Shown here: piece after piece, positions 22,876 to 51,734 of the stretch
Position numbering within the stretch: position 1 is the stretch's first letter
Layout of the letters: each line of letters opens with the position of its first letter
Assembly: GCA_905250025.1 (NCBI GenBank)
Contig: CAJNOJ010000034.1
Location: 186,001 to 250,000, forward strand
Direction of reading: 5' to 3'
DNA from: Adineta ricciae
Lineage: Eukaryota > Rotifera > Eurotatoria > Adinetida > Adinetidae
DNA: 64,000 bases
The notes under the pieces: model-generated
Told to the model about the DNA's origin: nothing
Databases searched by the model: none
Seen by the model: the letters and a program-made list of their open reading frames with translations, nothing else
Made by a program: the position numbers and the translations under genes

Positions 22876-23268
22876 CAAGGACAAAATCTGATAGTGCGAT
22901 CGAACTAGACATCTAATTCAACATCTAAGCAAACTGTATGTATCGAATAACTCAGTATTAATAAAAATTAGAATTGTGTCTATTTTTATAAGAAAAACAG
23001 AGGCTACACATGTGTCTTTGATATTCATTCCTTCTTGCGCCAAGCCAGAGACGAGTATAGATTCTTCGTAGCATTAGTACACATATTTAGAAAATATTTA
23101 GTTCAAGCTATGTTTGAAGAAAATTGAAAATATTTTGTCTGCTGAAGTACTTGAAACCTGTATGCAATAACGTTCTTGATTTCGAACCGTACGTACGTTT
23201 CTTAATACCCGAGACGATCGATTGGCATTTTTCTATTTTCATCTTCTTAAGCAAAAACAAACATTACA
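22876..23268. other. Convergent 3' region between the receptor and TGF-beta ligand A
   Basis: About 390 bases between two facing stop codons. AATAAA at 22960-22965 is a plausible poly(A) signal for the receptor. The same sequence recurs at 30738-31130 in copy B. Confidence 0.5.
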
Positions 23269-27300: not shown

Positions 27301-29278
27301 GATGAACTTTACTTGTAGTTAAAACTCGAGCATTTACAACTATCAAACTTTCGATAAAGAATGTTTTGATCGCTGGAAATTCGATCAATTAAAAGTCAAA
27401 ACTGTGACTTGGATTATAACTATTTGGTTTTTTGCAAAATAGTTTTAACTCCAGTCGTGAAAGAAATATCGGTACACATTCATTATTTGAGGAAGATAAT
27501 GAAAATAAAATTGAATTGGAAACAACAGTTAAAATGTCAATAAGTAGCACATGCGACTAAGAAATAAAAACTTTCATTTTGTATTTCGAATTAGAAGCAT
27601 CCAAACCATCGTTAATTTTCTTTCCCATCGTGTCATATTGATAATAATGATAACGAATGCCGAGAGAGAGGATGATCACATCCTGTCCCAAAAAAGAGAA
27701 AACATTAATCTCTGAAATATCGGGAAAATATATTCGTTCTGACGAATACGAAGAAAAAAGATGGCTAGTCACTCTCTCTCTCTTTAGCGAATGTAATTGG
27801 TGAACAATTTGACAGAAAGGAAAAAAAATCTTGTGTGTCTATCTTGTTTTCGCCCCCAAAACAACGGTACCCAAGAGGTTAATGACGAGAAGCTTTTCCG
27901 ATTTATTTTTTCATTCTTCCTGTTCCTTCTATGTGTCATGTTAGACATTGTACTCATTTTGGGCGCGTATCGATCGTATTCTATTAAAATTCATTCTTTC
28001 AACTATCTAGACTCACGAATGTCTTGTATATAGATTCGTTGGAGAAGAAGATTATATATATGGTATGTTTGATATACACTATATACAATCACTATGAAAA
28101 TACTCGTTCTTATTACACTATCCTGCTTAACCAGTCGATCAGTAGGTATTCAGTTTGACCATATTCTAACGTGTAAATAGAGGAGATGATGAAAACTTTA
28201 GTATATTGTTTGTCAAATAAAATGCTGTTGATTCAATCACAATATAGGTAGTTTTTCTCTTTTTAAAGTTGAATAATCATATAAACAATAATCGATTTGT
28301 TTTATTATTTGAAATTTGCGCTGGAAAACCAAGCATAAAACATACAACGTACGCAATATTTATGTTCATCATTCATAAATTATATATCAATAGTTTCTTT
28401 CTCAACTAAAAGTTTAGAAACAGATTTTCCGGGTAAAATAGAGCCATAGAAAGAATAAATCTTGAGTGTCAAAATATACGAATGAAAAAATATATGCCAC
28501 TAAAAATCAAGGAAAATGTATACACCTATATATATATATACTCCACTTTCTCATTTCTTTTTAAGATTTAATCAATATGCAACGGCACATACAAAACAAA
28601 TAGTATATGCGTAGGTCTTTTTCATGTTGAGAAGCAACGTTGGTATCGACCAGGCACAGTTGTACTCTTCTATTAAAAGGTATTATCTGGGAAGATGATT
28701 TTCATAGATCTATAAGATAAAATAAATAAATATTGTAAAAAACAATGCCGATAATAAAACACAATTAGTTGATAAATCTCACTACTTCACGATAATTGAA
28801 GAAAATTAATTCTTTTTTCTCTGTAGTGTTTTAATCCATGAACTATTTTCGTTTTTTAGAATTCGGTTAATTTGATAAATGATGACTGTATTGATGGAAT
28901 ATTAAATCAAATTTTTCTTAACATATATGTTCTGTTTAGTTGTTTGTTTGTGTATAACTTTATCTTAAACGCACCTCATGTTGGATCTGTTACAGTCAGG
29001 TACTTAAAATACTTCCACACACCATTAATTATCTATTTGTTTTTCTATTATATCGCCTTTCTACAGTTTTTTTAACTGTATTTTGAATATACGGATTGAT
29101 ATTTGCTTGCCGGAAAGAGATGTTTTTAGCAATATATTTTCAAACACAGCACGCGGAGAAAATGAATCTCTTCTTCTTTACTTCATTTTTTATAATCAAA
29201 CATTTTATTGTTTTTTAGATTTGCAATTGTTCTCATTACTTATTCTACTTAGATATTCAACTAGAATTCGATTCGAAA
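24343..29278. other. Copy A spacer, largely non-coding
   Basis: Nearly 5 kb of AT-rich DNA between ligand A and the nuclease-like/kinase gene. It contains the dead BIR fragment (26085-26250). A 48-bp open exon-like piece at 28094-28141 (MKILVLITLSCLTSRS) is followed by a GT donor. A small frame at 27797-28033 is also open in copy B, as expected from sequence identity alone. I see no other gene, RNA or repeat array. Confidence 0.5.
26085..26250 (-). pseudogene. Dead BIR-domain fragment from an IAP gene, copy A
   Basis: Read on the minus strand, this stretch aligns with the second BIR domain of the IAP genes: SCNVGDRMMCLYRNLICQQ corresponds to the intact CNVGDRVICLYCNLICQQW. A zinc-binding Cys is replaced (LYRN for LYCN), and bases covering the histidine and last cysteine region are deleted before a remnant matching CPYVIA. 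There is no start, no BIR1/BIR3 and no RING, so it cannot make an IAP. Confidence 0.8.
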
Positions 29279-30613
29279 ATGATTGGTAAGTTTATTTTGT
29301 TAAGTTTCCAATGAAGCTACCGATTGATTAACATTCTTTCGAATAATTCGATTCCTCTCAATCGAAAGCCAAACTTAAAACATATCATATCTTTGTATTG
29401 TATAAAACAATAGAAACTTGTTTATTTAGGAAATATTTTCATGCAAAACCTTGAATAGAACAATGAAACCATACCTTTATGATTTTCTTTTCATACATAG
29501 ATCAATATGAATATGAGTCACAATTATCGGAATCGGTTCGATCACAAAAATCAGATGAATCTTTTATTCTACACATTTATTCAACAAAGATTGATTGTAC
29601 CACATTAGAAGAGTTTCTTGGCATTTCAAACATGATTCTCCATGAACCAACGGAAGATTTTCAAAATACAATTAATACATTTCTCACAGTGTCAAAATCC
29701 AGATCAGAAAATGAAGGAAGTTTAGAATTTGATAATCATTTAAAAAAGTTTAATTCACAAGTAATATTTACCGGAAATCAAAAGGGTGGTGAATTTGGAT
29801 TAGTATTTTGTGATAAACAACCAGATTTTACATGGTCAATGAATGAACAATTCCATCCATGGGCTATTATCACAATAATCGAAAAGAAAAAGAATGTTTT
29901 AACAAGAAATGAAATATCACAAATGTTAGAATATCTAAGAATGATTATTCAAATATCTCCTGAACGAAATTATGCAGTTGGATGTTTAACTAATTATAAA
30001 GAGATTGTTTTTGGTAAAACATCAATAGTAAACGATAAATTTATTTACGAAGTATTTAAATCAAAAAATATTATTAAAGAATATTGGAAATTTCTTCATT
30101 GTAATCCATCTCATTTGGGTCATGTCAAATTTTCTATTCCAAATAATTTTTATGTTAAATTATCATTGGGTAAGCAATTGTTTATTTTTTGTAATAGGCT
30201 GTACCTTTAGAGAAAATTCAATGCTTTTGCGAGAACATTTTGATGTTGAAATGAATCATTATAAAACTTGATCAATGTGTCATGAAGATGAATTGTTAGA
30301 TTTATTTTAATTTCATAGAAATCCGTAATTGGCGGAAGAATAGAATTAATTTGTATTCGGCAGTTGAACATTCATACCGTCTTTAAAACTTTTCTTTTTT
30401 CTAGGAAGAGGTGCAAATGGTATAGTTTATCAAATTGAACATGAAAATATTCAATATGCCATGAAAATTTCAAATAAAACATCAACAAAAGAATATGAAA
30501 TAGCTGAAAAAATGAACAATTACATAAATGAACATTCATTATCAGATATTAAAATAATACATATGTTTAATATTCAAGGCTTTATTTTATCAAGACCAGT
30601 TGGAAAATTAATG
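29279..30613 (+). pseudogene. Nuclease-like/kinase fusion gene, copy A, cut off at the assembly N
   Basis: 5' part of the same gene as 38225-40143. Exons: 29279-29285 (ATGATTG only), 29501-30169 and 30405-30613. The restriction-endonuclease-like domain is complete, with PDFTW, ITIIEKKKN and SQMLEYL motifs. The kinase domain begins with a glycine loop (LGRGANGIVYQ) and Lys in YAMKIS, then stops at GKLM where an unknown base is followed by receptor-tail sequence. The catalytic loop and the rest are missing here. There is no internal stop before the break, so this may be an intact gene truncated by a faulty join rather than a true pseudogene. Confidence 0.75.
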
Positions 30614-30614
30614 N
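30614..30614. other. Single ambiguous base joining two homologous segments
   Basis: An N separates kinase exon sequence (…GGAAAATTAATG) from glutamate-receptor tail sequence (ACATGTCAACTAC…). In copy B the same kinase sequence instead continues AACAAAAATG. A one-base N is typical of contig joining or gap closing, so the link between copies A and B is not supported by this sequence itself. Confidence 0.9.
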
Positions 30615-30737
30615 ACATGTCAACTACTATGGCAAATGGAACGCGACACAGACAGTATTGATAAATTCAAACTCTTTTTTAAACGCGACGATCGGAATGT
30701 TGACTGGGACTATGTCCAAGGTTCAAGTGAAGTTTAA
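30615..30737 (+). pseudogene. Second copy of the glutamate-receptor C-terminal tail
   Basis: About 40 codons identical or nearly so to the end of the receptor gene (LFFKRDDRNVDWDYVQGSSE), ending in TAA instead of TGA. The rest of the gene is absent upstream because the N intervenes. Either this is the tail of a homologous receptor allele on a joined contig, or it is a duplicated orphan tail. Confidence 0.85.
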
Positions 30738-31130
30738 CAAGGACAAAATCTGATATTACGATCAAACTAGACATCTGATTCAAGAACTAAGCAAACTGTA
30801 TGTATCGAATAACTCAGTATTAATAAAAATTAGAATTGCGTCTATTTTTATAAGAAAAACAGAAGCTACACATGTGTCTTTGATATTCATTCCTTCTTGC
30901 GCCAAGCCAGAGACGAGTATAGATACTTCGTGGCATTAGTATACATATTTATAAAATATTTAGTTTAAGATATGTTTGAATAAAATTGAAGATATTTTGT
31001 CTGCTGAAGTACATGAAACTTGTATTCAATAACGTTCTTGATTTCGAACCGTACGTACGTTTCTTAATACCCGAGACGATCGATTGGCATTTTTCTATTT
31101 TCATTTTCTCAGGCAAAAACAAACATTACA

Positions 31131-32204
31131 TCACAGACAAGCACATTGTCTCACAATAATATCTTTAACAGGATAGATTTGTAAATCACCATCAGTTTGT
31201 CGAAGAAGAAAATTATCATCAGCATATTGTGAAGGAACACAAGTTGGATGACGTACATGACTGTTCTTTTTATTAATCATGGCTTGTAAAAATGTATGGA
31301 GTGATCCTTGTTGAAGAGTTAAGTCTGAGCATGAACCGTCACAATATGTAAATGTGTATTCTTTTGGTCGAATAATTAAATAAGCTAAACCAAGTTCTTC
31401 AAATTGAATTTGAATAGATTTTAATTTACATTTCGTTTCTTCTTGAAAAGATAGATGATTCGAACGAAATGATGATAGAATTAAATACGAATGTGATGTA
31501 GAACAAGTTTGATCAGAAAGAATGCTTTCGATAATTAGATTGGATCGTTTGATTTGTCGAAGATAATCATAAATATTAAGAAAATAAAATTCGCGCATGG
31601 AATCATATTCTAAATTAGTATCCAGCGCGAACACTTCGCGCAAATCGTCCGATTGTTTCACGACGATTCGCAACGGTATGGATGACTTAGATATTTGGTT
31701 CGTATTGACGTGATAAACGAGTTCGATCGACGAGAAACCGTCGATCACATCAGACCATGAAAATGTGGATTGAATCTGATTCGAATTTATAGATAAACAA
31801 CCCGTTGGCTGTACTGTTCGAACTGGGACTGTTAACAGAGATGACGAAGTAATTGCTCGTCGACGCCGACGAGTTCGAACTGAAAGATCCAACAACAAAA
31901 AAAAACTAAGTTGTTTGGAATGATAGATGAGCAAATTTCAATACGCACTTTCTTCTAAATTCGTTAGTAATTGATGCTTTTCAACCATCGATTGTATTAA
32001 TGATGAATGAGATATGTTTAATACATCAATAAAGTGTTGTCTGAGATAGAAGTTTCGATAAGATCGATTGGATAATAATTCGAATTGATGAAAATTTGTT
32101 GATGATAATGTCATGATCGAAGCCGAATGTGATAGAGGAAATATAAGAAGAAGAAAGAAGATTTTCCAAGATTGAAAGTTCGTGAATAAATGATCGGCAA
32201 ACAT
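31131..32204 (-). CDS. TGF-beta superfamily ligand lacking the interchain cysteine, copy B
   Basis: Homologue of the ligand at 23269-24342; 334 residues, exons 32204-31949 and 31879-31131, the same 69-bp intron and phase. The signal peptide, the RTRRRRR run and all six knot cysteines (CKLKS, YCDGSC, HPTCVPS, CACL) are kept. Differences from copy A include T/A after the polybasic run, A/V in SWSD(A/V)IDG, H/Q, H/Y, S/N and a final K/R. They are scattered, mostly conservative, and leave the frame open. This suggests both copies are, or recently were, under constraint. The fourth, dimer-forming cysteine is missing here too. Confidence 0.85.
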
Positions 32205-33934
32205 TATTTCGTGCCTGTTGTTATCATTAATGATAAACAACTAATATTATACGATGAATATGGCCAGCCGGGTTTCGATCGAATGAAGTATATATTCATT
32301 ACGAAATCTGAGATACGAATTCGAAGATTAACAGTTGAATTCGATGGAATATATATGTGTACTAGAATAAACGTAATGAAGTAATATAAACAGATGAAGT
32401 CGGCAAAAATATTTGTTATCTTTTTCTCTGGAACGAAAAAAGAAGGAAATGTTGAAATCAAACGAGTCTCCTACACGAGCATTGCCTCATATAGTCAAGT
32501 CTTATCGCCGGCAAGTACGAATCTGTTTGATGTTTGATGTGCAGCTATTTCGACAACATAGCACAGAATGCACTTTACTTTACATTATGATTCATTACAC
32601 GAGGCTTGTACAACTAACATTCTAGCAAATTCGACGCAGAAAGAGAGAGAAATCATCATTTGTCTTCTGAAATACGAAAAAGACGAGTAGTCACGATCGA
32701 TATCGAAATCGTATTTATGTGTTTAATCTATTTCGAAGCGGTTAATCAAAGTTGAATAATCAATGTGCGAAAGAGAAAAGCGAGCGCATAACTGATAGTT
32801 ATGCTTTCTGGTATGACTGCTCGTGTTAAAACTGTGCATATTTGCCAGTGCATTGCTGATAATTAATCTCTCACAGATGTGATTCGATGAAAAACGGTGA
32901 TAATTCAGCATTAGTCTATTTATATATTTGAAAATGAAAACCAAATGAAGAGAAATGCGTAGTGGTTCTTCTTTCATTGTTTTCGAGTAGAATCCATAAT
33001 GATAAATTATATGTTATCAGTTCGTGTTCGGTACGTGAGAGAATAACAACAGGTTTCGATAGCTGTTTCATGCGTTGTTTTATTCAAAATTTCTTGTGAA
33101 GGGTCTGTATTAACTGCGATTGTTCGTAGAATTCATCAATAATTAGATATTAGTTTGCTATCTCTAGATTCTGAAACTTTCGTTCGGCACATTGGTAGGC
33201 GGATGAATGGAATTCGATTTTTATCAAGTACAAACTGTAGTTATTATTACGATTGAAAAGAAATATGAATATATTTCATCTAATGATGTAACAATACACG
33301 AAAAAATCCGAAGAATGAGATACTAATAATTTCATGTATAAAAATGAATGAGTCCAAGAAGAATAACAAGTGCATAGTTAGTATCGCAATATTTCTAAAA
33401 CCATTTTTTGTTCTTTGAAGTTGCATGGATTATAACTATCGTTATATTTATAGTTTAAACGAGGCGCATGCCTTAAGAATTGATTTCATTGCTAAATTGG
33501 AAATAACGACAGCAATCTACTTGTTTTTGAGCAATCAGACATACGACGAATAAGTCAGTGGCAGCAACAAAATCATCGTCTGCGATCAAAACAAGGAATT
33601 GTAATTCATATGATAGACGAAAGAAGAGCAGTGTTCTCTTACTATGTTATCTTAGTTGATCTTCTCAACGACGTTTGACTATTGGTAATTGGATCTTTTG
33701 CCGTAGTAAATTACGAGAAATGAGAAGATCGAGTCGAGTATCATCGATTGTTCTCTACGTGCATTTTCGGTATCGTATTCTTTCTTTTTGATAGGCTATT
33801 CTATCGTATTCTTATATTCCAAATCAGACAGTAGATTATTAAAATTAACTTGAAACAAACCCTAATAAATTCTTTGCTATACACGTCTTTCGCATAAGTA
33901 CAATTCGTAAACCGGCGTGCATGTTCAGTCATTG

Positions 33935-34120
33935 CAATCACATATGGACATCTCACTTAGGTCATGCGTTTGATGAGTCCACTGTTGACAGATTAGATTG
34001 CGAAATAAACACATCATCCGATCGCCAATATTACAACTATAAGGAAACCTGCTACAACCATTTGTGTACTCGAGAGACACATGTGCAGAGGTCAATGAGT
34101 AGAGAATTTGTTGGGTGAGT
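33935..34120 (-). pseudogene. Dead BIR-domain fragment, copy B
   Basis: The minus-strand reading aligns with BIR2 of the IAP genes (…STQMVVAGF… and a VNSGLIKRMT stretch matching QQWTPQTDDP). It carries several in-frame stops (TGA, TAG, TAA), for example where intact genes read DRVICLY. Longer than the copy A match at its 5' side because it retains the 'SSAQMVEAGFF' region. Nearly identical to copy C at 41973-42160. Confidence 0.82.
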
Positions 34121-36493
34121 CTTGCAACAATCTTTTGTGAAAACAGTTGCTGTTAAAGAGACGCTGGAAAGATCCATCCATAGCGCTCATCAAAGAAGAG
34201 ACGACATGACATATCTTGGTGTCCTATTCAAGTATTTTCAGGATTTTATTCGTTCATACATGCGTTTCAACTCTGATCCCACTGGTTCGAAGTAGAACTC
34301 AAAGTGCCGTACTGATTCCAATGATAACATATTGAAAAGCCTCTACCCGCCTACTTCAAAAATAGCAGTGACAAATCCTGAGAATTTTGGCAAACTCGGT
34401 CCAATTCTCTTCTTTACTATTAAGCGCGGCTTCAAACTTCAGCCCGGACACATTTCGACGACCTCTATATGATTCCAATCATCAAGTTTTTCATCACCAC
34501 CCTCACTCTCAAGATATTCTATAATTCTAGCGACTCAGAAAATAATATTTCGTCTTTCTATTTTCTTTGCGAGAGTCACAGTAATACAAAGTCGGTACTT
34601 TTTGAAGAGGAGACCATAGGGAATGGGTTTATTTCTTCCAAAAATGCATCAGAAGTAGACGAAACAGTAGAGGCGTTCATGGGAACGGCTAACCGTGAGT
34701 GGCCGACCGACTAGACGTTCATTTGGAGAGTGAGACATGAGAATATCGATCTGTTTTTATAACTTTCACGTGCTTTGAATGTTTCTTCGGAGGCGCTTAA
34801 TTGATGATCTACAAGAGCGAATTCGACAAATTTCTATTTCCTGAAAATGGCACGTTCATGCGAATTTCCTATATCTTCAGTTATGAAGTGATCTTCCATG
34901 ATGACCGAATCTTTCACATTAGACTCATGATTGTGAGGAAAACAAAAAAAAGACAATGCGCATTAGCGACTAGTCGCGAATGGTCGACCGCGAGGAGGCC
35001 GATGAGCGATTAGACGTTTGCTTAAGAGCTTTATACAAAGGAAAATAAATACGAGTAATGCATTTTTGAAGATTATCAAGCGATAAATTCCGTGAATGTT
35101 TACAAATAGTACTTGTTTTTGGTTGTCTTTTTCAATGAATGAATTAATGATACTTTGAAATGGTGAAAAGATGAAAAACACTTAAAAAGCATTTATGTAT
35201 AAAGTTCGCTTGGGTGTCGATCCGTCCAGATCCAGATCCCGCTTGTGAGCTTTATACTGAGCACTCTTTCATCCTTTCAGAAAAGGGTAAGTGAATCCAG
35301 AGGATGAGCGTTACTTGTAGTCAAAACTCGAGCACTTATAACTATCAAATTTTCGATGAAGAATGTTTTGATTGCTGGAAATTCGATCAATTAAAAGTCA
35401 AAACTGTGACTTAGATTATAACTATTTGGTTTTTTGCAAAATGGTTTTAACTCCAGTCGTGAAAGAAATATCGGTACACAGTCATTATATGAGGAAGATA
35501 ATGAAAATAAAATTGAATTGGAAACAATAGTTAAAATGTCAATAAGTAGCACATGCGACTAAGAATTAAAAACTTTCATTTTATATTTCGAATTGGAAGC
35601 ATCCAAACCATCGTTAATTTTCTTTCTCATCGTGTCATGTGCCATATTGAGAGTTTATGTAATGTGGATAATAATGATAACGAATGCTGAGAGAGAGGAT
35701 GATTACATCCTATCCCAAAAAAGAGAGAACATTAATCTCTGAAATATCGGGAAAATTCATTCGTTCTGATGAATACGAAGAAAAAGATGACTAGTCACTC
35801 TCTCTCTAGCGAATGTAATTGGTGAACAATCTGACAGAAAGGAAAAGAAATCTTGTGTTTCTATCTTGTTTTCACCCTAAAAACAACGGTACCCAAGAGG
35901 TTAATGACGAGAAGCTTTTCCGATTTATTTTTTCATTCTTCCTGTTCTTTCTATGTGTCATGTTAGACATTGTGCTCATTTTGGGCGCGTATCGATCGTA
36001 TTCTATTAATATTCACTCTTTCAACTATCTGGACTCACGAATGTCTTGTATATAGATTCGTTGGAGAAGAAGATTATATATTGTATGTTTGATATACACT
36101 ATATACAATCACTATGAAAATGCTCGTTCTTATTACACTATCCTTCTTATCCAGTCGATCAGTAAGTATTCAATTTGACCATATTCTAACGTGTAAATAG
36201 AGGAGATGAAGAAAACTTTAGTATATTGTTCGTTAAATAAAATGCTGTTGATTCAATCACAATATAGGTAGTTTTTCTCTTTCTAAAGTTGACTAATTAT
36301 ATAAACAATAATCGATTTGTTTCATTATTTGAAATTTTCTCTGGAAAACCAAGCATAAAACATACAATATATGCAATATTTATTTTCATCATTCATAAAT
36401 TATACATCGATAGTTTCTTTCTCAACTAAACATTTAGAAACAGATTTTCCAAATAAAATGGAGCCGTAGAAAGGATAAATCTTGAGTGTCAAA

Positions 36494-36652
36494 CAGACCA
36501 AAGCGATAAAACAGAGTTAATCAATAGAAACGCTAGAATTGAACGACTCTAGCGTTTCTATTGGTTAACTCTGTTTTATCGCTTTGGTCTGTTTTACCCC
36601 TTACTTATGTTATATATCTATTGTTATTTGATTGTCAATCAAGAGAAAGAAA
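36494..36652. mobile_element. Stem-loop insertion with 10-bp target duplication
   Basis: Present only in copy B. The first ~100 bases fold back on themselves: CAGACCAAAGCGATAAAACA at the left end is the reverse complement of the sequence ending ~36590. The arms are ~44 bp with one or two mismatches, around a ~10-base loop. An AT-rich tail follows. The insertion is flanked by GAGTGTCAAA at 36484-36493 and 36653-36662, a 10-bp duplication, and copy A has one GAGTGTCAAA at the empty site. Confidence 0.8.
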
Positions 36653-36785
36653 GAGTGTCAAAATATACGAACGAAGAAATAGATGTCACTAGAAATCAAG
36701 GAAAATGCATACACCTATATATATACTCCACTTTCTCATTGCTTTTTAAGATTTAACCAATATGCAATTGTACATACAAGACAAA

Positions 36786-37297
36786 CGGTGGCGGATTTGG
36801 GGGGGGGGGGGGGGGGAGGCGATAGCCCCCCAGGTTATTATGGCACGGTCGGTTCCGGCCGGTTAAGTTTGTTTTCCGGCCATTTCCTTGCCGCCGGATT
36901 CCGGCCGGAAGTTCAAACGTAGGTTCCAGTCATTTCCCGACCGTTTCCTGCAAACTACGAGCTGGAAACGGCCAGGAACTGATCGGATATTTCCTGTGCA
37001 ATTCCGGCCGGAATCCGGCGGCAAGGAACCTACCGGTACTTGCTGGAATCGGCGAAAACTGTGCCGGAATCGAGAAGAGCTGTACCGGAATCGGCTCAGA
37101 TTTCAACGGATCCAGTCGCCGGAATGATCGACCTGAGCCCCATCGCACACAACCCCCCNNNNNNNNNNGCGGGGGGGAACCGCGGAGGGGCGTCCCCGAG
37201 CGGGCCCAGGTGGAAAGGGACCCCGCGGCCGGAAAGACCGCCCTGGGCCCCCCCCCCCCCCCCCCCCCCCCCTTCAAAGATCCTAGATCCACCACTG
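36786..37297. mobile_element. hAT-like non-autonomous element with G and C runs
   Basis: Absent from copy A. The ends resemble the common CAGTGGCGGATC hAT-type terminus: left CGGTGGCGGATTTGGGGG, right (inverted) CAGTGGTGGATCTAGGATC. A run of ~20 G follows the left end and ~22 C precede the right end. A 10-N gap lies at 37159-37168. The flanks AAGACAAA and AGAACAAA could be an imperfect 8-bp duplication. The internal GC-rich 'CCGGCCGGAAT' part (36865-37133) recurs inverted at 62319-62530. Confidence 0.65.
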
Positions 37298-37854
37298 AGA
37301 ACAAACAGTAGTTACGTAAATCGTTTTCATGTTGAGAAGCAACGTTGGTATCGATCAGGTACAGTTATACTCTTCTATTAAAAGGTATTATCTGAGAAGA
37401 TGATTTTCATTGATCTACAAGATAAAATAAATATTGTGGATAACAATGCCGATAATAAAACACAATTAGTTGATATAAATTTCATTACTTCACGATAATT
37501 GAAGAAAATCAATCATCTTTTCCTCTGTATTGTTTCAATCCGTCAATTATTTTCATTTTAGAATTTGGTTAGTTTTATAAATGATTACTGTATTGATGGA
37601 ATATTGAATAAAATTTTTCTTAACATATATGTTTTGCTTAGTTTTTTTTTGTTTCCGTGTAACTTTATCTTAAAAGTACTTCATATTGGATCTGTTACAG
37701 ACATGTACTTAAAGTACCTTCGCATACCATTCGTTATCTTTTTCTTCTATTATCGTCTTTTCACAGATTTTTTTAATGTATTTTGTTTTTGAATATACAG
37801 ATTGATATTTGTTTGTCGAAGAGATATCGTTAGCAACATATTTTCAAACACAGC

Positions 37855-38101
37855 ATCCCAGCTCAACAAATTCGATGCTGGATCCGACCATCCGACAAAA
37901 TCCGATCGGATTCCTGGAAACGGAATTGCATTAGAATCCGACTGGAAAAATTTCGTCGGTTGTTGCAAATTTTTATGAGCGATCTTTCTAGCTATATTCT
38001 ATGATGACCCTTAGAAAAACTGGAAAGTTCATGTTTCGGGTCCGATGAGATCCGACATTGGATCCGATCGGATCCGAGTACGGGACTGATTGACCTGGGA
38101 T
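37855..38101. mobile_element. Short TIR repeat rich in GGATCCGATCGG units
   Basis: Inserted in copy B relative to copy A. The ends are ATCCCAGCTCAA and, inverted, ATCCCAGGTCAA. The interior has repeated 'ATCCGATCGGATCC'-like palindromes and the marker phrase ATGATGACCCTTAGAAAA. A relative of ~313 bp lies in the fourth intron of the third IAP gene (58701-59013). Confidence 0.7.
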
Positions 38102-38224
38102 GTGGAAAAAATGAATCTCTTCTTCACTTCATTTTTTATAATCAAACATTTTATTGCTTTTTAGATTTGCAATTGTTCTCATCACTTATTCTATTTTCAT
38201 ATTAAACTAGAATTCGATTCGAAA

Positions 38225-40143
38225 ATGATTGGTAAGTTTATTTATTTATTTTTTTGAAAAGAATCGAGTCACCTAGTATTTCGAAGATTGAACTGAAGTT
38301 TTCAATAACGCTACAGATTGATCAATATATTTTTTGAATAATTCGATTCCTCTCGATCGAAAGCCAAAGTTGAAACATATCATATCTTTGTATTGTATAA
38401 AACAATAGAAAGCAGTTTATTTAAGAAATATTTTCATGCAAAATCTTGAATAGAATAAGGAAACCATATCTTTATGTTTTTCTTTTCATATATAGATCAA
38501 TATGAATATGAATCCCAATTATCGGATTCGGTTCGATCACAAAATTCTGAATCCAAATCAGATAAATCTATTATTCTACACATTTATTCAACAAAGATTG
38601 ATTGTACCACATTAGAAGAATTTCTTGGCATTTCTAACATGATTATCCTTGAACCAACTGAAGATTTTCAAAATACAATTAATACATTTCTTAAAGTGTC
38701 AAAAACAAAATCAGAAAATGAAGGAAGTTTAGAATTTAATAATCATTTAAAAAAGTTTAATCCACAAGTAACATTTACGGGAAATCAAAAGGGTGGTGAA
38801 TTTGGATTAGTGTTTTGTGATAAACAACCAGATTTTACATGGTCAATGAATGAACAATTTCATTCATGGAATATTATCACAATAATCGAAAAGAAAAAGA
38901 ATGTTTTAACAAGAAATGAAATATCACAAATGTTAGAATATCTAAGAATGATTATTCAAATATCTCCTGAACGAAATTATGCAGTTGGATGTTTAACTAA
39001 TTATAAAGAGATTATTTTTGGTAAAACATCAATAGTAAATGATAAATTTATTTACGAAGTATTTAAATCCAAAAATGTTATTAAAGAATATTGGAAATTT
39101 CTTCATTGTAATCCATCTCATTTGGGTCATGTCAAATTTTCTATTCCAAATAATTTTTATGTTAAATTATCATTAGGTAAGTAATTGTTTATTTTTTGTA
39201 ATAGACTCTACCTTTAATGAAACTTCAATGCTCTTCAGAGAACATTTTGATGCTGAAATGAATCGACAAAAACCTAGTAGAATCATCATGAAGATAAATT
39301 TTGTTAGATTTATTTTAATTTCATAGAAATCCATAATTGACCGAAAAATAGAATTAAATTGTATTCGGTAGTTGAACATTCATACCGTGTTTTAAACTTA
39401 TCTTTTTTCTAGGAAGAGGTGCAAATGGTATAGTTTATCAAATTGAACATGAAAATATTCAATATGCCATGAAAATTTCAAATAAAACATCAACAAAAGA
39501 ATATGAAATAGCTGAAAAAATGAAAAATTACATAAATGAACATTCATTATCAGATATTAAAATAATACATATGTTTAATATTCAAGGCTTTATTTTATCA
39601 AGACCAGTTGGAAAATTAATGAACAAAAATGATTTATGCAAAAAGAAATATATTAATCAATTATTTAAACAATTATCTATTGGTCAGAAACTTGGATTTG
39701 TTCATCGTGATATTCGAATATATAATTTAATCTTATTTAATGATGATATTTATTTAATTGATTGGGATTCATCGACATATAATGGTTTCCAAGGTAATTA
39801 TGAAGGAACATTTACAACAGCATCCACATCTGTATTGACTGAATACGAATTAACACATGGTAAACAAGTTTCAGCTTATTATGCTGATGATTGTTTATCA
39901 ATTATTTACATGTTATTATTATCAAAATGTACAAAAGAAGAACATGCTGCATTAAAACAATATGCTTCTGTTAGTTCTGCTGGTGAATTAATCGTAGAAC
40001 GTAGCGAGATTTTATTACAACGACATCCAACTATTATCGATCATCTCAATGAAATTGAAAAACAACGCCATAATTTATTCGATATAGATGATTTACATAA
40101 TCGATGTCAACAGATAATTCAACAACATATAGACTTGATTTAA
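38225..40143 (+). CDS. Restriction-endonuclease-like domain fused to a protein-kinase domain
   Basis: Complete gene for 472 residues. Exons 38225-38231 (ATGATTG), 38496-39176 and 39413-40143, all in phase. Residues ~1-120 are polar and unassigned. Residues ~120-225 look like a PD-(D/E)xK nuclease fold: PDFTW supplies an acidic residue, ITIIEKKKN the E-x-K, and ISQMLEYL the Q...Y helix. From ~230 a eukaryotic-type kinase follows: glycine loop LGRGANGIVYQ, Lys in YAMKIS, catalytic loop FVHRDIRIYNLILF (HRD, Asn at +5) and LIDWDSS in place of DFG. All catalytic positions appear present. The layout resembles REase-kinase combinations in Crinkler-type effectors and fungal FunK1-like proteins. Native substrate and role are unknown; nuclear action or defence against mobile DNA is speculation. 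Confidence 0.8.
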
Positions 40144-40336
40144 TTCCATGATTGTTCTCTGTTCGTTTTTTTCCCATCGTATAGACGATAGATTGGTTTT
40201 ACATCATCTATCGATATTTTGTTATATGGATTTAAATAAAAACCTAAATACGATGATTATTTTGAATGTCTTCTCCACATTAATATAACAAATTCTATCA
40301 AACATCTCAAAGAACATATCTTCGAATTCTTAATCA

Positions 40337-40661
40337 CTAATATCGAGTTTTTTTTGCAATGTTTTTAATAGCTTGCAATTCTTTTGGATGTAATTCTCCA
40401 CCACCAGATACTGCTAGAAGTGCAAAATAAATCAAACAATATTGAGAACCCTTCACATATATTTTATTAGCTTGTTCACAAGTTCCTAGTGTATAAATTT
40501 TTAATTGATCAATTGCTTTTCACTAACACCTATCAATAAAAAAAAATACTCAGATAGATTATTACTAAATCATCTTCAGATAGAAGACCTTTATGATTAA
40601 AATTATCTAAGAATCACCATTGTACAATACGTTGATCTCGTTCAGATGTATTAGTATTCAT
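40337..40661 (-). pseudogene. Broken TerB-like or EF-hand-like gene fragment
   Basis: Minus strand from ATG 40661: MNTNTSERDQRIVQW, then a TGA in frame, then FLDNFNHKGLLSEDDLV, and after a probable intron a second block: YCLIYFALLAVSGGGELHPK followed by ELQAIKNIAKKTRY and a stop. The two blocks need a one-base shift near the second exon start. The pattern 'helix, then GG/DGELHP.El..I..ia' recalls TerB-like folds, but this is a weak resemblance. Stop plus frameshift make it non-functional. It lies convergent to, and just downstream of, the kinase gene. Confidence 0.5.
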
Positions 40662-42557: not shown

Positions 42558-44322
42558 GGTTTCGCCAGATTTGTAGTGTGATTAGGCGTCTTTCTTTTCT
42601 CCGAATGAAATTTGTTTCGCAGAATGAATAAATAATTTTTACGCTTGTCAATGACATTTTATTAAAAAGCCGCCCCACTTAGTCATAAACTCTATCGAAG
42701 TTGAGTTCTACAAGAAAGGGTTATTTATCAGTTACTCATAGAATGCTATTATGCACTTTGAGGGTTGAAATGGTGTGATCAAGAATCATGCTTTGTTATA
42801 TAATTGTTAAGACGACGTAGATTGTTACTCATTTTTGACTTAGTCACAAACAATACTCATACAAAAAACTTCCTTTCTTTCAACAATTGTTTTGTATTCA
42901 ATGAAGTATTAAGGATGTGACGGAATATGAGTAATAGTTTGACAAGTATTAAATTTCTGGATTGATGTTGGTTTTTTCCCCTGATAACCAAAGTATCAAT
43001 TACCGATGTTCGAAATCGTACTTTTGGAGCATTTCCAGTACGAAGCACTACAAGAAAGTTGGTACTTCAACACGCAGTCAAGTGCTACTAGACACGTTGA
43101 GAGAGATATTATTTCTTGGTTTTTTCCCCATACATAAATATTTCTTCGTAGATCACGACGTTTATCAATATAAAAATAACCAGTGAATTGGAGGTTTTTT
43201 CCCAATGTATGGGATAGAAACCACTCCATGAGTAATTGTATATGACAGATGGTTGCTAGTAACAAATTTGGTAGAGAAAATCTCTAAAAATTCTTATGTC
43301 GCAATGCTGATAGAAGCATAACAACGTCATATGTTTTTACGTTCTTTGACGGCGAATAGAAACAACATGAAGGTTCCCCATATTTTATAACAACGAAAAT
43401 ATCATACATCATTTGAAGTATCATGATGGCCAGAAGATTCTTTTACGCAATTTTATAAAAAATTAAATTAAATGACGCTTTTTAGTCAGGAGAATGTTAA
43501 TCAACATGACGTCATCAACATAAATAAACTGATTCACAGATATTCGGTAATGATTAATTACAGTGATGCAATTAATAACGAATTTTTCAAAAGAAATAGG
43601 GATTACTACAATTGGTAGTTTCCCATTGAGAATGGTTAAAATGCCGATCAGTGAAAATTAAAATGTAGTACAGAGTGTTGTGCTTGTTTCTTAGTATGTA
43701 AGATAAGGTATCATTTGTATGTTTCGAGCACAATACTATTCACCCTGAACTCAATTAATTCATTGTTCTCTTCGATTGATTCGAAATTTTTCAGTTTCAC
43801 CTCTGTCAATCTATATAGATGTCACGTAGTGTCTTGTCGTCTGATTGGTTGAAAACATCCTCTCGCTTCCATTGGTAGTGAACAAACTTGGAAATTTCCA
43901 AGCGATGCTTTTTATATTCAATATGAGCTGACTATAAAGCAACGCATTGCCTTTGGTATTTTCCCCCTACAACGCGGAATATGCCAGATTGAATCATACG
44001 TGAGTAAGAGTGTCGAACCTTCCTCGTGCGTGCCCCCGCGTTGAGAGGAGTTCTATATTTTTAGAAGATTCTGCACTTCTGTATGTGAGTATGGAATACT
44101 TGGACGAAGGAAAGTAGTTTCGAATTTCATTTCTGTACAGTGCAATTATCCATTAAAATAAAGCCGAAGTCGAAAACACAAAAATAGACAGTTCGTTCTA
44201 ACAATGGTAGTCAGCAGAGACATCTTAGTACTTTTTATTTTCATTTAAAACAATTACTCACAATTGTGATATATTCTCTCTTCTGTCGTATTCTTTTAGA
44301 TTTATTATTTGTATATTACACA
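42558..44322. other. Intergenic region upstream of the first IAP gene
   Basis: About 1.8 kb of AT-rich sequence. It contains three scattered GGTTTTTTCCC-like tracts (around 42970, 43120 and 43195), which may be repeat remnants. The region nearest 44323 presumably holds the IAP promoter. No gene is supported; frames such as 42962-43186 are low-complexity. Confidence 0.4.
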
Positions 44323-46393
44323 ATGTCATCAGTATTTTCTACATCTCCAAAGGCAATCCATGAACTATTACATAAAAATGAAGCGATGGATACGCGAAGA
44401 AAAACTTCAACTAAGCGAAAAGAGGAAATGACGAAAGCAACCGCTGTTCAAACTCGAATAGCAGAACTTCGTAAATCAACGACGAAACATGGAGTTTATA
44501 GTGTATGTGTACTAAATAGCCATGGATTCGAATATACGGGTGAAGGAGATACAGCGAGATGTGATAGCTGCGGACTAAAGATATCAGACTGGACATTAGA
44601 TATCGACCCTAGAGCAATTCACTTCGAAAAGAGTCCTGATTGCTCATTTCTAAAGTCTCTGAAGTTAAAATCACCGGAACTAATACACCATTCAACATCA
44701 TCATCATCGTTGGCAACAACCGCTCATAATTCGTCGTCATCGAATGAATCGGAAAAGCCCTCGAAGCGAATAAAAATAGAACAAAATGAGTTAATGTCAT
44801 TAGTTAGTATGTTATACGAAACGAATCTACTTCAACAAGTACGAAGAAGGACTTTTTCTCATTGGCCAAGTCGTAGTATTCCATCTGTAGCGCAAATGAT
44901 GGAAGCTGGATTCTTCAACTGCAATGTGGGTGACAGGGTGATATGTTTGTATTGCAATCTTATCTGTCAGCAATGGACTCCTCATACTGATGATCCGAGC
45001 GAAATTCATAAAACACTTTCGCCGAAGTGTCCATATGTTAGAGCGAAATTGATACGTCCCCCGGCATCGTCAATAATTATTGTAAATGAAGGCGGAGCTA
45101 CTGCGGTCACTGGCACCAATTCATCATCAAACCAATTTGATCCATTAAGATCGAACGAAATCGTTTTCACAGCTGCTTGTAATCCTGCTTACACAGAAAT
45201 ACCAAAGCGTCATGCATCATTTGAACAGTGGCCAAAGGAGAATTTACCTTCCGTCGATGATTTGGTACGAGCCGGTTTCTTTTATACTGGTTCGAAAAGT
45301 ATCGTAACCTGCTTTTATTGCAATGGATCGCTACAGAACTGGGGTCCAAACGATAATCCTATGATCGAGCATGCAAGATGGTTTCCGCATTGCGCATATG
45401 CAAAACAACTGTGTGGTGATGATTTGTATCGTAAGATTCAGGAGTCAAAACGAGCACAGCAAGGTATGTCAGACTTGTTGTCTTCTTCAGTACAAGAAGT
45501 TTTTGAAACTGATTTCTGTTTTAGAGCGGGCGAAAGCCAATGAACTTAGAGAGAGAGCGACTGTAAGTGGAACAACAAATACAACAGGCGCTGCCACAAC
45601 AACCAATAACCGTCAATTATTAATACCTGATGAAAGTACTTTGTCAAGACTCGTGGCAGCACGACTCGATTTACCAATTTCTCAACGATTACTCGATCAA
45701 AATTTCAAATTATCTATCATCAAACGTTGTTGGGAAGATCAATTACGATTGAAACGTACGTTTTTAAACTCAGTAGAAAAGCATTTTCTTTAATACTGTT
45801 TGTTTTCTCGATTTTTAGAAGATGATTTTCAATCAGAATGTGACCTCTTCATTGCTTGCACTATTCTCCAGAAGCAAATCGAATACATCGATGGTAAAAA
45901 GGAGAATATTGTCATACCAAGCATCAAGATGAAACAGATTCGAGAAAAAAATGGTCAGTTACATTTCATTCGATCTACTTCTTTTCTTCACCTGCGATTT
46001 GAATTTCTAGAAGCACAACTTCGTGAGCCAACATCTAATCAAGCACCAGTGATCTCCAATCCAACAGATGCTGAAATGACTACATCATCACAGTCTTTAA
46101 CAAACGAATCGGTCTCCTCCCAATCTTCGATTGAATCAACTTCCAAACCAACCACACCTGGCAGTCAAGGAGAAACAAAATCCATTAAACAGATCGTTTC
46201 ATCAAGCAGCGAACACGATCAATCGAACTCTAATACTCCATCAAATCCATGTGTACTTTGCTTAACAGAAGAAAAACGATTAGCCTGCATACCCTGTGGC
46301 CATTTAGCCACGTGTGTTCCTTGTGGACATTCTTTGAGATCATGTCCAATGTGCAGACGCGAAATAGAAGCCTTTGTGAGGATCTACATTTAA
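44323..46393 (+). CDS. Inhibitor-of-apoptosis protein, three BIR domains plus RING, paralogue 1
   Basis: Cytosolic IAP/BIRC-type protein of 629 residues, expected to bind caspases or IBM-bearing proteins and act as a RING E3 ubiquitin ligase. Exons 44323-45463, 45525-45755, 45819-45953, 46011-46393. ATG 44323 is the first true ATG in frame. BIR1 is short (HGFEYTGEGDTARCDSCGLK, then IH and PDC). BIR2 is full (RTFSHWPSRSIPS, CLYCNLICQQW, EIHKTLSPKC). BIR3 is full (ASFEQWPKENLPS, CFYCNGSLQNWGPNDNP, EHARWFPHC). All Cys/His zinc ligands are present. Then comes a UBA-like helical region (LVAARLDLPISQRLLDQNFK), a Ser/Thr-rich linker, and a C-terminal RING (CVLCLTEEKRLACIPCGHLA ... CPMCRR) ending EAFVRIYI, like BIRC2/3. 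No CARD is seen. First of three tandem paralogues. Confidence 0.93.
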
Positions 46394-46812: not shown

Positions 46813-48660
46813 ATGCCTCGATATCTACTTTTTTTTGCTCATGAACTGATCGATTTCCGACTGGCTGTGAGTAATGAATAACTGTATGAATGCGTCTCAA
46901 ACTCTTCCATTCTCGTAGGAATTATTCAGTTTGGCAGAAATGTTCGGTTTTCGAGAGAGTATGACAATCGAAAGAAAACCAGAGCAAGTGTGTGCATCTT
47001 GCGGATAGAAAAGAGACATAAAAAAGCAACTATTTGATTCTAGGATCCATTTATGCTATGCACATTTTCTAATGTGGATCATTTAAAATTGTACTCGTCT
47101 CGATCTGTGCTACTGAAGTGAGATTTGACGATATCGGTAGCATATATACATAGGAGATCTATTCATTTAGATCTGCTTATGAATATTGGACACACGGATC
47201 ATCAATGGTCGATGTTGTTGACAAATTGACCGTCAATTCCGATTTGGTAATTAGGAAAACAGATATTCATGAGTAGATTGATTCTTTTGGATATCTTAGC
47301 GTCCGAAACCTAATGAAACATGGCGTATACTTGTTCATGCTTTTCGAAAACAATTTGCACAACCGGAAAAAGTTCAACGAATTGAAGTAGGAGTCATAAA
47401 ACATGGATTTGTTATTTCACTCTGAAACTTGCAGGCATTCAGTGATCGATTGAATATCACAAATCGATTTTGTTTAAATAATAAAGCGGATTGTACTGTT
47501 GGTCTGTTCGAAAACTACGAAGAAGGACTACTGGAACAACCGAAAGAAGTTTTCACTGGGCGATGGGTAAATATCTTTCTATCGAATTATTCACAACGAA
47601 AATTTCCCATATACATTTGAGATATGTGATGGAGCACGTCATTTGATTGAAAAGTATGACGTGCGAAAGCGTTACTTCATTGGTAAGTTAAAAATAAGAA
47701 TGTACCAGGTTCAGTTTCGAACGTTCACCATTCGCATAGGCAATACAACCATGGATGCTACATTATCATTTGTCATGGCAAACATGGCTCAGTGCCAACC
47801 GAACCATATCGCTCTTGATCCTTTTTGTGGAACAGGTGAGTTTCGGTGAATATCCTTCTATTAAAATATAATCGAAAAACTGCATCTAGGTGGTATCCTA
47901 CTGGCTTGTGCAGAATTCGGTAGTTATGTAATTGGAAGTGAATTTGACTGGCGTGTACTAACAGCACAAGGTAGATTGTTTAGACAAAAAACAGAACGGG
48001 CGCGATCACGATGCTTTTCGAACTCTACATGTTGTAGCTAAACCAACGAAAGCCAATACGAAGCAACGTGCTCGTAACCCCGATGAAATGATGTACCGAA
48101 ACTTTTCTGATTATGGCACATTGAGTCGTTTCTTAGGTGTCGTTGGTGCGGATTTTGCCTATCCACCGTGGCGACAAGGGTTTACATTCGACGCTATCAT
48201 TTCCGATCCGCCCTATGGTATTCGTGAATCCTCTCAGCACAAAAGTCGTCGTCAAGGTGACTCGGCCGAAGGCGATGCACAGAAATATGACTTAACAAAT
48301 ATCTATGTTGATTTGTTGAACTTTGCAAATGTTTATCTTCGTATCGGTGGACGATTAGTTTTCTGGATGCCTACGCATATCATGACTTATGATGAAAGTT
48401 TATTACCAACACATTCGTGCTTTCAATTATTTTCCAACGATGAACAACAACTCAATCGAACAACTAGCCGACGGCTAATAACAATGGTGAAAACACGCGA
48501 GAGTCAAGGTGATGAGAAGGCAACAGTGAATGAAAAATTATTTAGTAACTTTCGTGATTTGTATTTTACGCCCAATACGAAAATATGGGAACAACTAACT
48601 AGCGAAAATGCTGTGATCGATTCATCTGTTATTTCGAAAAAACGAAATCATGAAGATTGA
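46813..48660 (+). CDS. TRMT11: TRMT11, tRNA guanine-10 N2-methyltransferase catalytic subunit, with apparent frameshift
   Basis: Catalytic subunit that, with TRMT112, methylates N2 of G10 in cytosolic tRNAs using SAM. Nine exons: 46813-46866, 46919-46987, 47044-47117, 47171-47246, 47300-47386, 47435-47566, 47622-47682, 47740-47835, 47890-48660. The THUMP-like N-terminus starts MPRYLLFFAHELIDFRLA. Next come GRW, KYDVRKRYFIGNTTMDATLS, the SAM motif ALDPFCGTGGILLACAEFGS, then IGSEFDW. The catalytic motif is IISDPPYGIRE, followed by LLNFANVYLRIGGRLVFWMP and TSRRLITM. The exons sum to 1420 bases, one over a multiple of three. The frame changes near 47965-47975: ...RVLTAQ ends in one frame, and VDCLDKKQNGRD continues in the next. 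No intron fits, so this is an indel or sequence error. Otherwise full length and well conserved. Confidence 0.88.
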
Positions 48661-49798
48661 TTATTACAGAAATAAAAACGTAAGTTTTGTCGCGTCAAGA
48701 AAATATTTGAAAAATGTCGCCGAAAAAAGAAAAAATGCAGCACTTTGATCTGTGAAAACACAACCGTCTGACAGCTGTCTTATCGGCGAAGAATGTTCTT
48801 GATAAATGTTATTTTTGTTTTTTCAACTGCGTTTTGTTGGAAAAAACCCAGTCTGTCTGTCTTCCTAGGATGTTTTCGATGAAATCATTATGGATGACTT
48901 GTTGTATAGGCACTTTTGTCCAACATCTAATCTTTTTATATGGTTCATTCCTTACGACCAAACAAAATCAGTTACCCAGTCAAGCATGAGAGAAAGGAAA
49001 TGAAAAACGTGCCACGTATCAGCGACGCGCATTAAAATTTGTTATGGGGAAGCTTCACAAGTATTCAGAAGCAATCTAACATGACCTTCGAATACAGGGT
49101 AAACATGTAATAAAGGAAATAACCATATTTACATGGCTTTCTCCCTTTTTGATAAGAAGAAATTGGTGGGTTTTTTTCGTCATGTCAGTATATGATAACA
49201 TATGAGAAGCTTTTCGTGATTACAATCGCGGGTCGTATAAAATCGGCTAAGACTAATAACATAGGCAAGGAAATATCCTTCTTTATAAATAGCAAAAATT
49301 ATTATTTTGGGAAATAAGTATATTCCATCGCATGTGCTTTGATCATACGTATATAACCATGAATCGATCAGCACGAAGTGATATGCCATCAAAAGCGCGT
49401 TTAAAAATTAATTTAATATTTTTCACACCGTCGGTATCAATAAAAGATCGAATATTTTTAGTTATGAATTTTTTTCTAATCCCTTGTTTCCACCATATTT
49501 GTCAGTTAAGCCATGTGCCTTTTTCTTTTCCTCACCTGGTTTTTTCCAACTTACAACCTATATAATGGAGGCAAACAAGGCTCAGTTTCATTCAATAACC
49601 ATGCACGAAGCGAAACTTATTGTCGACGAAAATGACTGACATACTGAAGTAGAAGCATCTGATAGTCATCAACTGAACCAAACAGACATAAAATAAATAG
49701 TTTGTTCACAGAATTTGAAATTGGTTGAATTATATAAACAAGATTGGAGGAAGTTACTTGAAGTTGTGTACAAAACTGTTAATAACATTAGAGTAAAT
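48661..49798. other. Intergenic region between TRMT11 and IAP paralogue 2
   Basis: About 1.1 kb, most of it inside the candidate TIR element at 48836-49550. The frame open just before ATG 49799 has no Met and is probably 5' untranslated sequence of the IAP gene. Confidence 0.4.
48836..49550. mobile_element. Candidate MITE with GTTGGAAAAAACC inverted ends
   Basis: GTTGGAAAAAACCC at 48836-48849 is mirrored by GGTTTTTTCCAAC at 49538-49550. The match is 13 bases and then weakens. No clear target duplication flanks it. AAGTTGGAAAAAACC also occurs at the right edge of the window (~63979), which suggests a repeated terminus. Confidence 0.35.
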
Positions 49799-51734
49799 AT
49801 GCTTTCAAAATATGAATTTTCCAACATTGATGAACGACAACAGAATATACTTGTTATTCCGAGTGCCAAAAACTATATTAATCATAATCCTGCTACACAA
49901 TTGAAAAGAAGAAAATTTACCCAGCAACATCTACCATTTGAAAAAGCAAGCCCATTAACTCAGACCATCTTCAACTGCCGAAAACTATCGCAAAAACAAG
50001 GCGCACACTCTAACATAGCAATGCAAGCAGCAGGATTTCGTTACACAGGTGTAGAAGACACTGCTCGCTGCGATACCTGCGGCCTGGAAGTATCTAATTG
50101 GACATTGGATATGAAACCCTTCAGTATCCATACTCAACAGAGCCCAGAATGTGCTTTTGTCCGTTCACTAGTGGTTGCCGTTTCTGTCAATACGTTCTCT
50201 AACACCACACTCTCAATAATGAACAAACTTGCAGATGATCATGAAAAACCTTCAAAGAGACAGAAACTCGAAACAGATCGAGAGTATTTACCAACGCCCG
50301 TTCTCGTTGAAGTGGATAAACTGAAACGGTTACGAAAAAGAACATTCTCACATTGGTCTCAGCGAATGGCTCCATCAAGTGTGAAAATGGCGAAAGCAGG
50401 CTTCTTTAGTTGTAATGTTGGTGATCGAGTGATATGCTTGTATTGTAACCTTATTTGTCAAAATTGGAATTCTGAGACTGACGATCCATGTGCTATACAC
50501 AAAGCATTATCACCACGATGCCCGTATGTAATTGCAATGACAAACCGCCAAGATATAGCCTCGATATTGATTCTTAATGGGCTTTCTACAAATACGAATA
50601 TCGTAGAACCGATTTGTTGCGATGAAATAGTGCACGCAACTCCATGCCACACTGAATATATGGGGATTCCTCGTCGACAAGTATCATTTGAGACATGGCC
50701 AAACGAAAATCTTCCGCTCGTCGATGAATTAGTACGAGCAGGTTTCTTCTATACAGGCTCCGATACAACCGTCACCTGTTTCTACTGCGGTGGGTCATTG
50801 CAAAACTGGAGCTCAACAGATAACCCAACGGTTGAACACGCGCGTTGGTTTCCAAACTGTGCCTATATTAAACAATTATGTGGACCAGACCTATATCGAA
50901 AGGTTCAAGAGCTAAAAAAAGCTCAAGAAGGTTAAATCTTTTATAGTGAATATTATAAAAACGTGTACTGTCATATTTATTTTTGTGCAGATGAACATAA
51001 ACCTGACGGTCAACAAGTAGGTCGAGGACTATTAAATGTAACAGATGAAAGTTTACTCTCACGACTTGTTGCTGCTCGGCTTGATTTGACAGTTTCCCAG
51101 CGGCTACTCGATGAAAACTATCGAATCTCTATAATCAAACGCTGTTGGGAAGATCAATTGAGACTTAAGCGTAAATATAAACAGATATAACTGGACTCAA
51201 TGAGACAGTTGTTTTTATTTAAGGTGATGATTTTCTTGATGATTGTGAACTTTATTTGAGCTGCGTTATTTTGGATAAGCAAATACGTATTATCGATGGT
51301 AGGAAAGAAAACATTACTATCCCGTATCAAGCAATGAAGGAACTTCGTGAAAAAGAACAGCAAAGTATATAAAACAGGTTTTGAACTAACTTCTTAATAA
51401 CTGAAATACTGCTTCAGGAACTTCTGCCCGCGTGGAAGGTGCGAGTACGTCGACACCATCAGAATCGAATGTTAATGATGCGGATGTCTCCGAATCACGA
51501 AATATGGATATGGAAAATTCTACTTCAAAAGTATCTGTATTACCTATTAAAATAGAAAAGCAGACAGAAAACTTGCAACTGTCTAATCCATGCGTTGTAT
51601 GCTCAAAAGAAGAAAAGAAATTGGCGTGCATACCTTGTGGACATTTAGTAGCGTGTTTATCTTGCGGCAACTCTCTCCGAGTATGTCCGATGTGTCGTCG
51701 GGAAATTGAGGCTTTTGTTCGTATTTATTTATAG
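49799..51734 (+). CDS. Inhibitor-of-apoptosis protein, three BIR domains plus RING, paralogue 2
   Basis: Tandem paralogue of 44323-46393; 589 residues. Exons 49799-50930, 50991-51170, 51224-51364, 51418-51734, with the same intron positions as paralogue 1. BIR1: RYTGVEDTARCDTCGLEVSN with IH and PEC. BIR2: RTFSHWSQRMAPSS, CLYCNLICQNW, AIHKALSPRC. BIR3: VSFETWPNENLPL, CFYCGGSLQNWSSTDNP, EHARWFPNC. The UBA-like region (LVAARLDLTVSQRLLDENYR) and RING (CVVCSKEEKKLACIPCGHLV ... CPMCRR, EAFVRIYL) are intact. The linker before the RING is shorter than in paralogue 1. Expected role: caspase/IBM binding and ubiquitin transfer. No stop or lost zinc ligand is visible, so it is probably functional. Confidence 0.92.

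Follow-up and report, generated by a model that had tools for sequence, protein, structure and literature searches.

A spliced gene of the rotifer Adineta ricciae predicted to fuse a PD-(D/E)xK nuclease-like domain to a divergent protein kinase

A gene of three exons in the rotifer Adineta ricciae encodes a protein of 472 residues (55 kDa) in which a domain with the residue signature of PD-(D/E)xK nucleases directly precedes a protein kinase domain. The reading here preferred, for which our confidence is evenly balanced, is that the gene occurs once per haplotype and encodes an intracellular fusion of a PD-(D/E)xK (HsdR-N-like) nuclease and a kinase, acting as a controlled nuclease against invading or damaged DNA. 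The gene is an unusual animal gene of known architecture. Thus, the term "undescribed system" used for it in the initial annotation proved too strong for a lone gene, even though no Crinkler-type or REase-kinase protein of a rotifer is reported in the literature searched.

Results

Gene structure

The gene was located on the forward strand of the window, the stretch of 64,000 nucleotides of contig CAJNOJ010000034.1 that was analysed and to which all positions refer unless another contig is named (Table 1). Both introns show GT-AG borders, the spliced frame runs open to its stop codon, and splicing and translation confirmed the reading frame, the coordinates and the motifs proposed in the initial annotation. 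The minute first exon comprises two codons and one base, and its 16-base context recurs at 29276, at the start of a second copy of the gene. An in-frame ATG at 38474 represents an alternative start without intron 1, which would alter the first few residues only. Intron 2 is inserted at the glycine loop, that is, at the boundary between the nuclease-like domain and the kinase domain. The gene is A+T-richer than its surroundings, the G+C content of the window being 35.7%.

Table 1. Features of the nuclease-kinase gene and of its second copy in the window.
Feature	Positions	Strand	Description
Exon 1	38225..38231	+	ATG ATT G, then GTAAGT donor
Intron 1	38232..38495	+	264 bases, GT-AG; copies 89.3% identical, against 95.7% for exon 2
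Exon 2	38496..39176	+	residues 4-229, plus parts of the D3 and G230 codons; PD-(D/E)xK-like domain after residues 1-90
Intron 2	39177..39412	+	236 bases, GT-AG; copies 86.3% identical
Exon 3	39413..40143	+	protein kinase domain and stop codon
AATAAA polyadenylation-like signal	40235..40240	+	pattern match, begins 92 bases past the stop codon; use not implied
Second copy, probably other allele	29279..30613	+	exons 1 and 2; exon 3 interrupted after 209 bases by scaffold join

The kinase domain

Exon 3 can safely be assigned, from its predicted residues, to a divergent kinase with an intact predicted catalytic set. The glycine loop LGRGANGIV begins at residue 229, YAMK at 247, HRDIRIYN at 327 and DWD at 346, and the residues expected of a kinase are all present (G230-x-G232-x-x-G235, K250, H327-R-D329 with N334, and D346-W-D348), DWD standing in place of DFG. 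The Pfam family Pkinase (PF00069) matched at E=3.2e-5 with 23.9 bits, under its curated cut-off of 31.7, and weaker matches, all under their cut-offs, were obtained for RIO1, FTA2, fungal Pkinase and APH. The match to Pkinase_fungal/FunK1 (PF17667) extends from the catalytic loop onward, over residues 321-398, with E=0.0017 and 17.6 bits (cut-off 24.1). On the same part of the protein, NCBIfam returned 10 families, mostly kinases and far under their cut-offs (best E 2e-4), PADLOC the mad6 and PD-T4-6 models (best E 2e-5), and PHROGs one kinase family (0.0018). The matches listed among solved structures (the best 60 of 71 in one case and the best 60 of 100 in the other) were kinases, at E 0.0047 or worse. 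When searched against the genome, PF17667 also finds another frame of 472 residues (L015), which presumably encodes a VRK-type kinase.

The nuclease-like domain

Proteins of the PD-(D/E)xK superfamily carry an Asp and then Glu-x-Lys on consecutive core strands, together with a helix bearing Q-xxx-Y. In the translated gene, PDFTW begins at residue 114, IIEKKK at 132 and QMLEYL at 147, and these motifs provide within exon 2 the putative catalytic set P114-D115, E134-x-K136 and Q147-xxx-Y151, followed by an LTN strand. The D, E-x-K and Q-xxx-Y elements are all present in both copies of the gene, and residue propensities, serving as a rough guide, place strands before and a helix after E-x-K. Residues 1-90 did not match anything. 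A loose nuclease motif pattern, written after the sequence had been seen, matched 231 of 100,000 shuffled versions of exon 2, and for this reason an independent profile of HSDR_N_2 (PF13588), the N-terminal nuclease of type I restriction R-subunits, was built as a test.

HSDR_N_2 was the sole nuclease family compared by hhalign, and was chosen for its similar-looking TN-strand. Its domains were taken from one bacterial phylum and 15 of 19 entered the profile, those left out being L065 (the best-scoring) and L080, for both of which no sequence was obtained, and L079 and L081, set aside by hand as atypical-looking. With the two copies of exon 2, aligned and starting near residue 72, as query, a score of 24.0 was obtained over residues about 88-179, with a probability of 12% and an E of 0.0024 that holds for a single comparison. 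No shuffled query reached this score (0/200; mean 11.7, sd 2.4, maximum 21.7), the reversed query scored 10.3, and three other parts of the protein 7.5-11.1. Neither did any of 171 open-frame segments of the same genome, with scores up to 21.5, a set that includes the gene's own frames, two of its top rows (19.6 each) being truncated pieces of the second copy. When members of HSDR_N_2 were left out one at a time, all 15 scored 41.6-188, and the query is thus weaker than any true member of the family.

The profile-profile comparison, called for in the initial annotation as a check on the fold, gave evidence on both sides. The alignment matches E-x-K and the helix Gln to the same elements of the family, and the TN-strand to its TNG strand, at a score above those of all shuffled and same-genome controls. 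On the contrary, D115 falls outside the Asp column of HSDR_N_2, and the score remains below those of the 15 true members. As judged from sequence, the REase fold of the exon 2 domain is likely, being moderately supported and not proven. The broader proposal, in which an apparently active kinase follows a nuclease-like domain, is sustained, with the Pkinase match making a better case for the predicted kinase than the hhalign score makes for the putative nuclease.

Curated collections returned little for the nuclease part. No nuclease family of Pfam exceeded its cut-off, HSDR_N_2 being absent at E up to 10, and the traces seen were those of DUF6826 (PF20713; 17.5 bits against a cut-off of 26.6) and T4_y05I_C (14.9 against 27). 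The weak DUF6826 match spans PD...ExK...QxxxY, with E=0.005 for exon 2 alone. This family is named nowhere in the literature searched, gave one match below cut-off and none above it among 398 genomes of one bacterial phylum, and in the whole rotifer genome was traced, below cut-off, to this exon only. NCBIfam, PADLOC and PHROGs contained no family matching the nuclease part, and its only match among solved structures was an unrelated alpha/beta hydrolase (E=0.67). Single-protein scans, which reach close relatives only, confirmed no relative in viral contigs with any of three queries and, for the nuclease part, none in prokaryote contigs; at the same reach, with fungi, protists and other rotifers outside the scope, the nuclease part had no match in phages or plasmids. 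A PF13588 trace on contig C18 (23.7 bits, below cut-off) was set aside, its frame containing 3 stops beside a GSGKS motif.

Second copy and assembly

The whole-protein search of the genome gave 5 rows, which correspond to this locus, to the second copy and to an exon 3 on contig C26 (127008-127745), and showed no paralogue elsewhere. Two further rows of the nuclease-part search (E=4.9 and 9.3) were taken as chance. A single N (30614) terminates the partial copy, whose exon 3 is in agreement with the one on C26, where another single N lies ~100 bases upstream of exon 3 and the sequence beyond that N is like the one left of 22842. In addition, 22750-30617 and 30612-39625 repeat one sequence order, the TGF-beta gene included. 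From these comparisons, the partial copy probably represents the second allele, interrupted by the scaffold join and with its exon 3 continuing on C26; a decayed paralogue is the less likely reading, given the cut at the join and the agreement of exon 3 with C26.

Sequences around the junctions were then compared by columns. Among the 325 columns at the right-hand junction, 311 are identical in all three sequences, 10 are shared by C26 and the partial copy only, none by C26 and the full copy only, and in 4 C26 is unlike both, so that C26 matches the partial copy at 10/10 discriminating positions. At the left-hand junction 1/93 columns is informative, and it favours the unit of the partial copy, whereas a full haplotype swap predicts the other unit. 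There is thus support for the right half of a haplotype swap but none for the left half, considering the ten concordant positions on one side and the single contrary one on the other. The simplest reading appears to be that the scaffolder wrongly joined homologous haplotypes at single-N joins. The description of the Adineta ricciae assembly reports the use of Platanus/Redundans, 35.6% G+C, and homologues assembled separately (PMC5916493).

Some further features of this region were observed. The window seems to carry both alleles of a segment of 8-9 kb in tandem, with joins at 30614 and on C26 (L010:2341). Positions 39413-40544 are 99-100% identical to C26 (L010:876-2340), with flanks at 92-94%, and look like a gene-conversion tract. 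Two stretches, 36493-37300 and 37855-38296, have no matched block in the other copy, short or weak matches being possible, and are possibly mobile insertions. Near the former there are a 50-base foldback (36488-36597), G runs and an N gap (37159-37168).

Selection on the coding sequence

The two copies are 86-89% identical in their introns and 95.7-99.5% in their exons, with one 4-residue length difference near the N-terminus. Over 222 codons of exon 2 there are 13 synonymous and 16 nonsynonymous differences (dS 0.107, dN 0.030, dN/dS 0.28; Fisher p=0.0013), which shows that exon 2 is under purifying selection. In exon 3 the copies are nearly identical (1 difference in 209 bases), and the evidence of selection is therefore confined to exon 2 and does not extend to the kinase.

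Chromosomal setting

Besides the gene's own exons, 20 of the 33 open frames that reach 120 residues in the window were scanned against Pfam; 14 of these yielded a family (E up to 0.01) and the other 6 none. The families around the gene are RasGEF, an NMN transporter, ML, class C GPCR, TGF-beta, BIR, RING and a trace of a methylase. None of the 20 scanned frames is a known defence gene by Pfam match, and neither a tRNA nor an Rfam match at gathering score was found in the 64-kb window. IAP-like frames, each containing three BIR stretches, occur at 44188-45540, 49697-50932 and 56948-58105, and frames with RING domains follow IAP-like frames at 45794-46390 and 59514-60155. The frame at 8704-9354, on the reverse strand, encodes a PnuC-type nicotinamide mononucleotide transporter (PF04973, 93 bits), possibly acquired horizontally; PnuC is a mainly bacterial family. 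The methylase trace, at 47962-48657, is a weak Eco57I match (22.7 bits against 25.3), for which neither an NCBIfam family nor a solved structure was found at E up to 0.01, and the DPPYGIRE motif of this frame suggests what we take to be an ordinary TRMT11-type tRNA methyltransferase.

Discussion

Association of a REase domain with a protein kinase has a precedent in Crinkler-RHS proteins, and the initial annotation was apt in naming it. The pair is found in about one sixth of their C-termini (Zhang et al. 2016, as reported in PMC5289972), as in proteins of the type of Phytophthora infestans CRN8, and regulation of the nuclease is the role proposed for the kinase; kinase-controlled nucleases of restriction type are described as weapons of microbes (PMC5289972). 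The rotifer protein is like these in that a single chain joins a putative REase-superfamily domain to a protein kinase, a likeness of architecture, and it may also act on nucleic acid, as Crinkler-RHS proteins are thought to do. Unlike them, it has no recognisable Crinkler (LFLAK, ubiquitin-like) header and its host is an animal. Crinkler-RHS proteins bear at their N-terminus either this header (PF20147) or an alternative one. With the PF20147 model, the only one used for this header, no match was found in the protein, and none of 4 candidates in the genome exceeded the cut-off. Because this header is absent, the gene was not filed as a Crinkler-RHS member and was compared by architecture only. 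The available part of PMC8647823 reports no Crinklers in rotifers, and the literature searched does not mention FunK1 together with Crinkler. Regarding HSDR_N_2, the E-x-K, the helix Gln and the TN-strand are in common; on the contrary, no helicase partner is found within the 472 residues of the rotifer protein, and the match is far below family membership.

Several other explanations were weighed against a controlled nuclease. The strongest of them, which we nonetheless consider unlikely, is that the protein is mainly a signalling or DNA-damage kinase whose REase-like domain does not cut DNA but, as a DNA-binding or scaffold module, recruits the kinase to it. It draws on the kinase being the better supported domain and on the Asp column left unaligned in the HSDR_N_2 match, and is opposed by the presence in both copies of D, E-x-K and Q-xxx-Y. 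A self-toxic nuclease serving cell suicide or selfish maintenance, and held in check by its own kinase, seems improbable. Crinkler proteins are indeed reported to mediate or suppress cell death (PMC5289972), and at 4-18 kb on the downstream side there are three IAP-like BIR genes, but their proximity is probably coincidental. Nothing recognisable as an antitoxin was seen in the scanned frames, and the genome shows no multiplication of the gene.

Delivery of the protein into another organism as a secreted effector is very improbable, even though its two-domain layout is common to one Crinkler class (PMC5289972). Apart from the missing header, a simple hydropathy count found no 19-residue segment with a mean above 1.22. 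Injection of effectors is, moreover, not known from rotifers. The suggestion that the gene is a host-adapted effector was thus not upheld, considering that (i) a Crinkler header is lacking, (ii) there is no strongly hydrophobic segment, and (iii) the gene occupies one locus among animal-type genes. The product may be a nuclear defence protein, the other possibility named in the initial annotation. Least probable of all is that the gene does not belong to the rotifer and results from contamination or faulty assembly, as its A+T-richness, the single-N join and the duplicated segments of the scaffold might suggest. Contamination is unlikely because mostly animal-type genes share its contig, flanking it on both sides; in addition, the gene has spliceosomal introns and two diverged copies under selection, and the assembly fault seems limited to which haplotype joins which.

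Returning to the preferred reading, the gene would encode a domesticated, probably non-secreted nuclease-kinase directed against foreign nucleic acid. Its nuclease domain would cut or bind nucleic acid, and its kinase would switch the nuclease, probably by autophosphorylation. Targets might be invading DNA (transposons, viruses or environmental DNA), or the protein may have a role in the DNA-damage response. A cytoplasmic or nuclear location would be consistent with the hydropathy count, and the gene might have an ancient horizontal origin. Bdelloid rotifers are credited with many horizontally acquired genes and, in PMC8885841, with a bacterial-type DNA methylation mark. Since two catalytic centres are predicted in one small protein, its function is directly testable.

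A more specific proposal, which is tentative and rather unlikely as a whole, is that this is an animal's domesticated nuclease-kinase of Crinkler-RHS type, by which kinase-switched policing of foreign or damaged DNA would provide a restriction-like genome defence in an asexual, desiccation-tolerant and DNA-acquiring rotifer. If this were true, a header-less module of microbial conflict, kept by selection, would have been turned into an animal tool for genome protection or the handling of DNA damage.
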